DNA from: Deltaproteobacteria bacterium | GTDB lineage: Bacteria; Myxococcota_A; Polyangia; Polyangiales; Polyangiaceae | Direction: 5' to 3' | Assembly: GCA_016875405.1 (NCBI GenBank) | Contig: VGRJ01000031.1 | Span: forward strand, 1-42,204 | Length of the DNA: 42,204 bases | Notes under the pieces: generated by a model | What the model was told of the DNA's origin: nothing | The model's database searches: none | The model's input: the letters and a program-made list of their open reading frames with translations, nothing else | Program-made: the position numbers and the translations under genes | In this document: in pieces, positions 29,560-33,290 of the stretch | Layout: each line of letters opens with the position of its first letter | Position numbering within the stretch: position 1 is the stretch's first letter

Positions 29560-30888
29560 TCAGCGCGCGGGCCATGGGGCGGCCGAGGGCCCGGGCTGCG
29601 CGGTGGCTGCGGGCACGGTCGACGACGACGAGCTAGGCGGCGTCGCCTTGAGCTTCATGTCGACGTCGACGACCACGGTCTGGCCGGCGATGAGCTCGAC
29701 GGTTCGCGTCTCCTCCGGCGCGGACGGGTGGCGGAGGGTGACGGTGTGGCGACCCGGCTTCACCTCGATCGGCGTCGCCATCGGCGTCACGTCGATCGAG
29801 CGCCCATCGACGAACACTTCGGCCCACGGCCGGACGAGGACGCGCACGCGCCCCGGCTCGTCGACGATCCCTCGCGGCCCGGAGGCGGCGTCTCCTGCGC
29901 GCTCGTCGGAGCCTCGCCACCACAGCCCGACGGCGAGCACGAGGCCCGCCGCGAGGCCAACGGCTACGAGGGCCGGCGCACCGAGCGGGAGGCGGAGCGC
30001 CGTGCCTCGAGCGGCGTCGGCGTCGGCTGGGGCGGGCAGGCCTTCGGCGAGCCCTGCCTCCGCGAGCGCGCGGGAGACGAGCACGTCGCTCGGGAGCGAG
30101 GTCTCGCGGCGCAGCTCGCGCGCGAGTAACGAGGCGACGGTGGCGAGATCGGGCGGGCGCTCGTGCTGCCGCTTGGCGAGGCAGTCGAGCACGAGCCGCT
30201 CGAGCTGACGCGACACGGCGGGGTGCTCGCGCGAGGGCGGCGTGGGCGCGTGGTGGCGGATGCGCTGGCTGATGCCATCGCCATCGCCGACGAACGGTCC
30301 GCGCCCGGTGAGCATCGCGTACAGCACCACCCCGAGGAGGAAGACGTCGCTTCGAATCGTAGGCGGCTCGCCGAGGATCTGCTCGGGCGCCATGTGCGCC
30401 GGATCCGCGAGCTCGCTCGGGAAGGCCGACGCGCCGAGCGGATCGTGGAGGCACACCTGACCTTGCGCCGTCAGCTCGATGAGCCCGACGTGCAGCGCCC
30501 CGTGCGCGAGGTCGGCTCGATGAAGGGCGCCGAGGGCCGAGGCGATCTCGAGCGCGATCGCCACCGCCACGGGCGGCGGGAGCGCGCCGCTTCGCTCGAG
30601 GACCCGCGAGAGGCGATGGCCGCCCGCGTCGGCGACGACGACCAGCGGCTCGCCGCCGTCGCGCGCGAGCTCGACGAGGGTCGGCCACCCGCGGTGGCCG
30701 AGCGAGGCGAGGAGCTCGGCCTCGCGCTGGAGCGCGCGAGCGACGCCCGAGCGGTTCGTCAGCCCGGGCCGCGTCACCTTGACGAGCACGGGGAGCTCCC
30801 CCTCGCGACGCGCGCGCCAGGTGAGCGTGGCCGCGTCCTCGGAGGCGCGCTCCTCGATGCGGTAGGGACCGAGCGACTCAGGCTCCAT
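29560..30888 (-). CDS. Membrane-anchored kinase-like protein (predicted pseudokinase) with PEGA domain
   Basis: A 442-residue protein with a Hanks-type kinase fold (about 8-262), a membrane span (304-323) and a PEGA domain (347-412: AEVFVDGRS, VKPGRHTVTLRH). Several catalytic elements are lost. The glycine loop is ERASEDAAT. The HRDLKPxN loop reads HGALHVG (129-135), with no Asp. DFG is replaced by DPLG (149-152). Lys37 in VLVKV and MAPEQ (166-170) remain. It is therefore predicted to be unable to phosphorylate, but it may still bind nucleotide or partners. The ATG overlaps the stop of the upstream mutase-like gene (TGATG), implying translational coupling. Expected topology is kinase fold inside and PEGA outside. 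Confidence 0.87.
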   Translation of the reverse strand: MEPESLGPYRIEERASEDAATLTWRARREGELPVLVKVTRPGLTNRSGVARALQREAELLASLGHRGWPTLVELARDGGEPLVVVADAGGHRLSRVLERSGALPPPVAVAIALEIASALGALHRADLAHGALHVGLIELTAQGQVCLHDPLGASAFPSELADPAHMAPEQILGEPPTIRSDVFLLGVVLYAMLTGRGPFVGDGDGISQRIRHHAPTPPSREHPAVSRQLERLVLDCLAKRQHERPPDLATVASLLARELRRETSLPSDVLVSRALAEAGLAEGLPAPADADAARGTALRLPLGAPALVAVGLAAGLVLAVGLWWRGSDERAGDAASGPRGIVDEPGRVRVLVRPWAEVFVDGRSIDVTPMATPIEVKPGRHTVTLRHPSAPEETRTVELIAGQTVVVDVDMKLKATPPSSSSSTVPAATAQPGPSAAPWPAR

Positions 30889-32513
30889 CACGCGCTCGCG
30901 AGCAGCGATCGGCCCGTCATCTCGGCGGGCGCCTCGAGCCCGAGGAGCGCGAGAACGGTCGGCGCGACGTCGGCGAGTGAGCCGCCGGCGCGGAGCGTAC
31001 CGTGTCCATCGGCCGCGAGGAGGAGCGGCACCGGGTTCGACGAGTGGGCGCCGAGGCGGCGACCGCGCTTGTCTTCATGGGCCTCGCAGCCACCATGATC
31101 GGCGGTGACGACGAGCGCACCCTCGGCCGACGCGACCGCCTCGGTAATTTGAGCGAGCGCACGATCGAGCGCCTCGAGCGCCTCGAGGCGCGCCGCGCGG
31201 TCGCCGGTGCCTGCGACGCGCTCCGCGTTGCCGAGGTGCACGAGGATGACATCGTGCGAGCCTGCGGCGATCGCGGTCGCGGCTCGCTCGGCGACACGCG
31301 CGACGTGCAGGGCTGGACGCTCGTCGGGACGCTCGATGAGGCGGGGCGCAGGGACGAGCTCAAGGTCGGCGCCGACCGGCAGCGTCGCGGCTCGACCGTC
31401 GAAGAAGGTGGTCACGTGGTCGCGGCGATCGGACTCGGCGATCCGCAGCTGGGTCAGGCCGGCGGCCGACAACGTGGCGCCGAGCGTTGCGGCGAGGGGC
31501 GGCGACGAGAACGCGGCGGGGAGCGAGAGGCCGTGCGACATCGGCACCAGCGTCGCGAGGTAGCGGTCGCGGAAAGCTCGCACCGGGTGGTGACGATCCA
31601 TCAAGAGATCCTTCGTGACCTCGTCGGGCAGGTCGGCACGCGCGAGCAGCTGCGTCAGCTGCCGAAGCCCGTCGGGGCGGTGGTTCACGACGAGTCCACA
31701 GTCCTCTCCGGTCCACTCCCAAACAGGCGGGGAGTCCGAGAAATCGCAGAGAAAATCGCCGCGAAGGCCCGCGTACTCGCCGAGGCGCGTCGGCTCGACG
31801 AAGGCGTCGGTCTGCCCCTGCAGGTAGGCGAGGTTCAGCGCATCGAACGCGGATTCGGCGCGGGGCGCGAACGGTCCGAGCACCTTGTCACGGACGATCG
31901 CCTGGTACGCGAGGCTCACGCGGTCCCAGCGCCCGTCGATGTCCATCGCGTAGTGCCGACCGGCGAGTGTCCCGAGCTGGGCGCGCTTGCCCTCGAGGTG
32001 GAGCGAGAGCCGATCGAGCAGCGCGGCCGCGGCCTTCGGCGGGGTGTCGACGCCATCGAGGATCGCGTGCACGACGACCGGGACCTCGTGGAAGGCCGCG
32101 AGATCGACGAGCGCCAGCAGGTGCTCGAAGGCGCTGTGCACGCCGGCGGTGGAGAGCAGCCCGACGAGGTGCAGGGGCGCACCGTCGTAGACGGCGAGCT
32201 GATAGAGGGCGTCGAGCGTCGCGTTGCGGCCGAGCTTGCCCTGCGCCAGCGCCTCGTCGATCCGAACGCACGCGCTCGGCACGATGCGCCCGGCGCCGAG
32301 CGTGAGGTGCCCGGCCTCTCCGTTGCCGCGCGCGCCCTCGGGCAAGCCGACCTGCGAGCCGCTCGCGTCGAGGCTCGTCGCCGCGCCGCGCTCGAGGAGC
32401 CGCCGGTACGTCGGCATCGTTGCGCACGACACCAGGTTGTCCGGGCCCTCGTCCGCGAGCCCGACGCCGTCGAGCACGCACAGGACGAGAGGACGCGGAC
32501 GCGGCTCGGGCAT
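30888..32513 (-). CDS. Phosphoglycerate-mutase (iPGM)-like protein with altered active site
   Basis: A 541-residue full-length homologue of cofactor-independent phosphoglycerate mutase, with LDG (Asp15), AGVHSAFEHL (His126), TADHGG (Asp472, His473) and GAHSSNPVP (His490). The phosphorylated Ser of the GNSEVGH motif is Gly65 (GNGEAGH). The manganese motif usually reading PDMVGHTG is AERVAGTG, so Asp becomes Glu431 and His becomes Gly435. Substrate residues also differ: LDGVD (usually GRD), MDIDGRW (usually MDRD), HRPDGLR (usually RPDR), and Arg363 where Lys is normal. Glycolytic mutase activity is therefore unlikely. The fold is intact, so it may bind a metabolite or protein. It follows the RNase H gene by 18 nt and is coupled to the pseudokinase gene. 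Confidence 0.9.
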   Translation of the reverse strand: MPEPRPRPLVLCVLDGVGLADEGPDNLVSCATMPTYRRLLERGAATSLDASGSQVGLPEGARGNGEAGHLTLGAGRIVPSACVRIDEALAQGKLGRNATLDALYQLAVYDGAPLHLVGLLSTAGVHSAFEHLLALVDLAAFHEVPVVVHAILDGVDTPPKAAAALLDRLSLHLEGKRAQLGTLAGRHYAMDIDGRWDRVSLAYQAIVRDKVLGPFAPRAESAFDALNLAYLQGQTDAFVEPTRLGEYAGLRGDFLCDFSDSPPVWEWTGEDCGLVVNHRPDGLRQLTQLLARADLPDEVTKDLLMDRHHPVRAFRDRYLATLVPMSHGLSLPAAFSSPPLAATLGATLSAAGLTQLRIAESDRRDHVTTFFDGRAATLPVGADLELVPAPRLIERPDERPALHVARVAERAATAIAAGSHDVILVHLGNAERVAGTGDRAARLEALEALDRALAQITEAVASAEGALVVTADHGGCEAHEDKRGRRLGAHSSNPVPLLLAADGHGTLRAGGSLADVAPTVLALLGLEAPAEMTGRSLLASA

Positions 32514-32531: not shown

Positions 32532-33290
32532 TCACGTCGGGGCGGCGGACCGACCGGCCACCGGACGCGGCGCGACGCGGCGCTCGGAGGCGCGGCGGCT
32601 GATCGCGAGCCGCGCGAGCGCGTCGGCGCGCTCATTCAGCTCGACGCCCGCGTGACCGGGGACATAGCGCAGCTCGACCTCGCGCCCGACGAGCCGTCGC
32701 CGCAGCTCGGCGACGAGCTCGGTGTTGGCCTTCGCCTTCCAGCCTTGCTGCACGACGCCGATCGCGTAGCGGCTGTCGGTGTAGATGACGGCTGGCGTCT
32801 TCGGGTCGATCGCCTCGAGCGCGCGGAGCACCGCGGTGAGCTCGGCGACGTTGTTCGTCGCCTGCCCCAAAAACTCGGACACCTCGATGCGCTCGCCCTC
32901 GGTCACGACGACGACACCGAGCCCCGCCGGTCCCGGGTTGCCCGAGCACGCCCCGTCGCTGTAGGCGAGCGCGCTGCTCGGAGGCGGCTCGGTCGGAGGA
33001 GGAGCGGCGGCGGCCGCGCGGGCGGCGGTGGCGCGCGGCCCCGAGCTCGCGCCGCCCCGCACCTGACGCTTCGCGCCGTCACGCGCCGCTTCTTCGGCGG
33101 GGGCGCAGGTGTCATCGGGGAGCACGGTCGCATCGACGATCACGACGTTGGCCGCGACCGCGCGGTACAGCCTGCCGTCGCGCGGCTGGTAGCGGATCTC
33201 GACCCGCCCGCCGACCGTCGCGAGGCGTCCCGTCTCATCGACGCGCGCGTACACCGAGGTGCCGCGGACCTTCCCTCGCACCCACGGCAT
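32532..33290 (-). CDS. rnhA: Ribonuclease HI with an unusual N-terminal domain
   Basis: A 252-residue protein whose C-terminal part (about 106-232) is RNase HI, which cuts RNA in RNA-DNA hybrids. All catalytic acids are visible: Asp112 in YSDGACSGNPG, Glu150 in NNVAELTAV, Asp172 in YTDSRYAI and Asp223 in NERADAL. His213 lies in the VPGHAG loop. Residues 1-60 form a small basic, strand-rich domain (VRGKVRGTSVYARVDETG) that does not look like the usual hybrid-binding domain of eukaryotic or bacterial RNase H1. An Ala/Pro linker (75-105) joins them. The start ATG is 2 nt after the bolA stop, indicating one transcript. The N-terminal domain may aid nucleic-acid binding. Confidence 0.92.
   Translation of the reverse strand: MPWVRGKVRGTSVYARVDETGRLATVGGRVEIRYQPRDGRLYRAVAANVVIVDATVLPDDTCAPAEEAARDGAKRQVRGGASSGPRATAARAAAAAPPPTEPPPSSALAYSDGACSGNPGPAGLGVVVVTEGERIEVSEFLGQATNNVAELTAVLRALEAIDPKTPAVIYTDSRYAIGVVQQGWKAKANTELVAELRRRLVGREVELRYVPGHAGVELNERADALARLAISRRASERRVAPRPVAGRSAAPT

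Follow-up and report, generated by a model that had tools for sequence, protein, structure and literature searches.

Glycolytic enzymes can moonlight, and telling such roles apart from the metabolic one is difficult. The cyanobacterial iPGAM is controlled by PirC, and lineage-specific elements of the enzyme are involved in this control (PMC12077085). In Myxococcus xanthus, the kinase Pkn4 acts on 6-phosphofructokinase, as cited in PMC1262709, and the bacterial tyrosine pseudokinase EcpK belongs to exopolysaccharide synthesis (PMC12004946). A survey of bacterial mutases from 2010 traces how these genes were gained, lost and transferred, and reports the lateral acquisition of a second, plant/kinetoplastid-like iPGM by Sorangium cellulosum (PMC2964296). 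Our search of open-access papers turned up no account of an iPGM pseudoenzyme.

Here, we describe an iPGM homologue encoded at 30888..32513 on the reverse strand of the window, i.e., the whole stretch of 42,204 nucleotides that we analysed. It has lost seven key residues, and we call it pseudo-iPGM. We consider it likely to be a catalytically dead enzyme (a pseudoenzyme), retained because of a function other than catalysis, probably in regulation or as a scaffold.

The iPGM homologue and its active site

The gene has an ATG start and encodes 541 amino acids. The two-domain iPGM fold covers the full length of the protein, according to the Pfam matches (iPGM_N 2.8e-41, Metalloenzyme 6e-44), the score of the equivalog model TIGR01307 (385 bits for a cut-off of 331 bits), the end-to-end alignment with the solved iPGMs 1EJJ and 2IFY, and an AlphaFold2 model for which the window protein was combined with 44 iPGMs (mean pLDDT 88.7, pTM 0.89), whose best match in the PDB is 1ejj (TM 0.86/0.92). 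This bears out the sequence-only reading, which had called the gene a full-length iPGM homologue. The score of this probably dead protein exceeds the TIGR01307 cut-off and is therefore a trap for annotation: pipelines would call it an active mutase.

We numbered residues as in 1EJJ (B. stearothermophilus iPGM) and followed 15 residues which we take, from established knowledge of iPGMs, to be the catalytic, metal and substrate residues of that enzyme. Seven are lost in pseudo-iPGM (S62G, R153V, R191I, R264G, K336R, D403E, H407G) and eight are kept (D12, H123, D154, R185, R261, D444, H445, H462). The losses concern the phospho-acceptor serine S62, replaced by Gly65 (codon GGA, 32319..32321, reverse strand; GNGEAGH for GNSEVGH), the metal ligands D12, D403, H407, D444, H445 and H462, among which the metal-1 ligands D403 and H407 are gone and the other four remain, and the substrate residues R153, D154, R185, R191, R261, R264 and K336, of which R153, R191, R264 and K336 were replaced. 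In the modelled structure the fold is thus conserved and residues of catalysis are lost, as in a pseudoenzyme. These losses are not due to chance, because the 15-residue set is otherwise almost invariant: it is kept in 77 full-length iPGMs from many phyla, except in a degenerate relative from Polyangium (L199), in a protein with a truncated start (L236), and in L251, which shows D403V alone. The latter, from an alphaproteobacterial MAG, keeps all the other key residues.

The alignment with characterised iPGMs that the earlier reading had proposed, run against 1EJJ, confirmed the losses at Gly65, Glu431 and Gly435 and the retention of Asp15, His126, Asp472, His473 and His490. The claimed loss of the GRD, MDRD and RPDR arginines and of the active lysine was right too (R153V, R191I, R264G and K336R), and every residue call of that reading holds. 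Not all substrate arginines are gone, since R185 and R261 are still in place. The serine was also said to require two base changes to become a glycine, which is wrong: the codon of Ser62 is AGC in 72 relatives, so that one change (AGC to GGC) suffices, and the GGA of pseudo-iPGM represents a further silent change.

Could the protein have kept or gained another chemistry, e.g., phosphatase or phosphotransfer activity through the remaining metal site (D15, D472, H473, H490)? These four residues are present in the window protein and in its two nearest relatives. Yet, the nucleophile is absent, and degenerate copies share no common alternative active site, since D444 and/or H462 are gone in G002, G003, G035 and others. 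We regard this explanation as improbable. Artefacts deserve far less credit. The window's genome (G000) is in 218 contigs with 2.3% contamination, which might suggest errors of assembly or sequencing, or a contaminated metagenome bin. However, four congeners have orthologues in the same neighbourhood, and so do genomes assembled into one or two contigs (G035, G100, G115) as well as Polyangium sp. 6x1, whose record is not marked as a MAG. These independent genomes refute the artefact, to which we give practically no weight.

Second mutases and the loss of active-site residues

The sequence-only reading hinged on this iPGM not being the sole phosphoglycerate mutase of its genome, and the search for a second intact gpm gene that it suggested was successful. 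The genome (5.0 Mb, 99.1% complete) has no other iPGM, and it encodes an intact cofactor-dependent GpmA (C40:7898-8623, 378 bits to TIGR01258) with the motifs RHGES, NERHYG and AHGNS. Most likely, GpmA carries out the mutase reaction in the host cell.

We searched for iPGM and GpmA in 108 genomes from the family of this soil bacterium (Sorangium/Polyangium-family myxobacteria) and then read out the iPGM genes. Degenerate type-1 iPGMs were found in 22 genomes from nine genera: 20 are full-length and two (in G128 and G129) are too diverged for full alignment. All 22 genomes encode a second intact mutase, either GpmA or a type-2 iPGM, against only one of the 48 genomes with an intact type-1 iPGM (40 without and eight with the insertion described below, five being partial sequences). 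The raw Fisher test gives p 2.7e-17, a value inflated by kinship; the nine genera with degenerate copies are a fairer count, and formal independent (sister) pairs are only two. The second mutase is GpmA in G000-G004, G017, G035, G100, G114-G118, G066 and G067 (the gene of G002 is partial, at a contig edge), and a type-2 iPGM in G027 (split over two contigs), G033, G086, G087 and G127-G129, as well as in G066 and G067. Hence, seven genomes with a degenerate type-1 iPGM have an intact type-2 iPGM and no GpmA.

The single genome combining an intact type-1 iPGM and a second mutase is G085. Its insertion-bearing iPGM (L173) and its GpmA are both intact, and the iPGM is sister to a degenerate copy, which makes this genome transitional. 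Two other peculiarities appeared in the survey. Genome G030 encodes an apparent circular permutation of iPGM (L081, contig C241, 2776-4389, forward strand), in which profile positions 212-512 precede positions 2-208 in one open frame of 538 aa; most catalytic residues are kept, D154 is replaced by Arg, and the genome also has GpmA. The iPGM-like proteins of G129 (L153) and G128 (L154) are extremely diverged but still encoded between rnhA and the kinase gene, and both genomes have an intact type-2 iPGM elsewhere.

Type-1 iPGMs form two clades that differ by a conserved insertion in the transferase domain, and every degenerate copy falls in the insertion-bearing one. In pseudo-iPGM this clade-specific insertion, placed by alignment and model in the GDFLCDFSDSPPVWEW region (approximately 31716..31769, reverse strand), is modelled by AlphaFold2 as a beta-hairpin of residues 252-269 (local pLDDT about 70). 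The same insertion is present in the catalytically intact iPGMs of Sorangium and Byssovorax, and a scan with the alignment of this region found it in records of Sorangium cellulosum, Byssovorax sp. and Polyangium sp. 6x1; within the order, it was found in Polyangiaceae only. Its residues (F, F, W, W) are near-invariant among degenerate copies. The insertion also separates two fates of the gene. Lineages outside the insertion clade that have a second mutase lack type-1 iPGM, whereas inside the clade all sampled lineages with a second mutase keep the gene.

To count the inactivations we used an iPGM tree built without the 15 key-residue columns. The 20 degenerate copies group with the intact one of G085 in a fully supported clade that excludes Sorangium and Byssovorax. 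Within it, the intact G085 and the degenerate G087 are supported sisters (96/97); the supported branches require that the state changed twice, and a single change is seen in none of the bootstrap trees. A single clade of degenerate copies with G085 outside is not rejected by the AU test (p 0.39), and we therefore base the argument for independent losses on the pattern of residues. No site is lost in every degenerate copy. S62 is lost in the window protein, G001, G004, G087, G100, G033, the genus of G017 and G114-G118, G066, G067, G086 and G127, whereas G035, G027, G002 and G003 have kept S62 and lost D444, a residue still present in the window protein and in others lacking S62. Barring reversion, this split means that inactivation occurred independently two times or more.

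The degenerate genes are maintained by selection, as indicated by open frames in 22 out of 22 and by dN/dS (Nei-Gojobori) of 0.11-0.46, close to the 0.08-0.45 of intact groups, although several dS values exceed 1 and the estimates are rough. One might still see in these genes decaying relics, which lost catalysis after the arrival of GpmA and are on their way out. Active-site losses are indeed heterogeneous, the gene is absent from other lineages with a second mutase, and the copies of G127-G129 are extremely diverged. Positions outside the active site are relaxed as well: 25 of 99 conserved non-catalytic iPGM positions changed in the window protein, against 3-7 in intact family members, and the enrichment of losses at catalytic relative to other conserved sites is not significant per protein. 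The constraint has changed along the whole protein, which we count against our preferred explanation, even if such relaxation is expected once catalysis stops constraining these positions. Against this stand the open frame in all 22 cases, a dN/dS of 0.11-0.46 over divergences down to 61% identity, near-invariant residues in the insertion, and an intact fold. We find a relic unlikely. The loss of residues is tied to redundancy and occurred in more than one way, while fold, frame, place and purifying selection were retained. The earlier view of a conserved fold with a new role, rather than decay, remains the best reading of these genes, given their open frames and a dN/dS like that of intact iPGMs; that this role consists of binding or regulation is something we only infer.

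The neighbouring kinase-PEGA gene and a possible signalling role

Downstream of pseudo-iPGM lies a gene (29560..30891, reverse strand) encoding a kinase-fold protein with a single hydrophobic segment and, at its C-terminus, a PEGA-like domain that scores below Pfam's cut-off. Its start overlaps the stop of pseudo-iPGM (GTGATG). In place of the catalytic Asp of HRD, the metal-binding Asn and the Asp of DFG of Hanks-type kinases, it has HGA, Leu and HDPL, and by its sequence it is therefore a predicted pseudokinase. The gene on the other side, 18 bases upstream of pseudo-iPGM, is rnhA-like (32532..33290, reverse strand), and it is adjacent in most related loci too.

In the family, the kinase gene comes after nearly all type-1 iPGMs, intact or dead, and this order is kept in every degenerate locus with a flank long enough to check. 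Kinases beside iPGMs without the insertion mostly keep HRD and DFG. Beside insertion-bearing iPGMs, the HRD aspartate is lost in all sampled lineages except that of G116 (a Polyangium-like genus), including kinases next to the intact iPGMs of Sorangium, Byssovorax and G085. Within the insertion clade, the mean identity is 59% for the PEGA-like domain vs 39% for the kinase domain. Most genomes of the family that we searched have one strongly matching copy of kinase-PEGA, and in several lineages its kinase residues decay as the PEGA-like domain stays conserved. The pairing with iPGM is not obligate: we read the locus in 19 genomes that lack type-1 iPGM and found the orthologous kinase still there, without an adjacent iPGM. 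In a quick kinase tree, these kinases fall on the non-insertion side (SH-aLRT 99).

The overlap of the two genes, and the presence of the kinase gene after almost every copy, raise the possibility that the iPGM frame is kept only for translational coupling and not for its protein. Coupling alone would hold neither a dN/dS of 0.11-0.46 nor the fold, and lineages without iPGM do keep the kinase gene. This makes coupling a very unlikely reason for the retention of the frame, somewhat less credible still than a different chemistry.

We favour the retention of a function other than catalysis, which probably predates the loss of the catalytic residues and would be tied to the insertion. Its age is argued from the fate of the gene in lineages with a second mutase, which lack it outside the insertion clade and, in all those sampled, keep it inside. 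Intact insertion-bearing iPGMs are still present in Sorangium and Byssovorax, beside the same membrane kinase-PEGA gene, and the insertion-bearing iPGM probably had another task already at the time when its catalysis could be spared. In lineages with another mutase, which is GpmA in the window's genus, this iPGM has lost its catalytic set, through different residues in different lineages, and the protein has nevertheless remained whole, at its locus and subject to purifying selection. It might serve as a cytosolic scaffold or as a regulator that responds to metabolites, in either case by binding the membrane (pseudo)kinase-PEGA protein. The latter is a candidate partner of pseudo-iPGM, and the hairpin of the insertion a candidate contact surface, two suggestions that we make with more reserve than that of the function itself. 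More tentatively, at slightly less than even chances, a signalling role with the pseudokinase-PEGA protein would predate the loss of catalysis, and each acquisition of a second mutase would have allowed the enzyme function to be independently discarded and the signalling kept.

The iPGM is found in one and the same gene neighbourhood as an intact enzyme in Sorangium, in a transitional state in G085, and dead in Polyangium and the window's genus, and a second mutase is present where catalytic residues were lost. Evolution seems to have split a moonlighting from a metabolic role, and the hidden function could be tested in culturable genera. If true, this would be a natural, replicated experiment separating the moonlighting function of a glycolytic enzyme from its catalysis.

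Comparison with described systems

Pseudo-iPGM resembles iPGM/GpmI (1EJJ, 1O98) in its full-length two-domain fold (TM 0.86/0.92), with 34% identity and eight of the 15 key residues. It differs from these enzymes by the absence of the serine, D403, H407, three substrate arginines and the lysine, and by the extra hairpin in its transferase domain. In the passages used here, the survey in PMC2964296 describes the presence of genes only and mentions no degenerate iPGM. The second iPGM it reports in Sorangium is probably of the same kind as the type-2 iPGM of the seven degenerate genomes without GpmA.

The PirC-regulated iPGAM also carries lineage-specific extra elements, there tied to control by a partner (PMC12077085). 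Yet, that enzyme is active and has its loop after H462, close to the C-terminus, whereas pseudo-iPGM carries its insertion in the transferase domain and has lost catalytic residues. Pkn4 and 6-phosphofructokinase, as cited in PMC1262709, are a precedent for a myxobacterial Ser/Thr kinase that acts on a glycolytic enzyme. In that case both kinase and enzyme are active; here most of the HRD/DFG residues are missing from the kinase-like protein, and the enzyme is devoid of its active site. Finally, EcpK is a precedent for the non-enzymatic use of a dead kinase-type protein in a myxobacterium (PMC12004946), but it is a tyrosine pseudokinase, whereas the neighbour of pseudo-iPGM is of the Hanks type with a PEGA-like domain.
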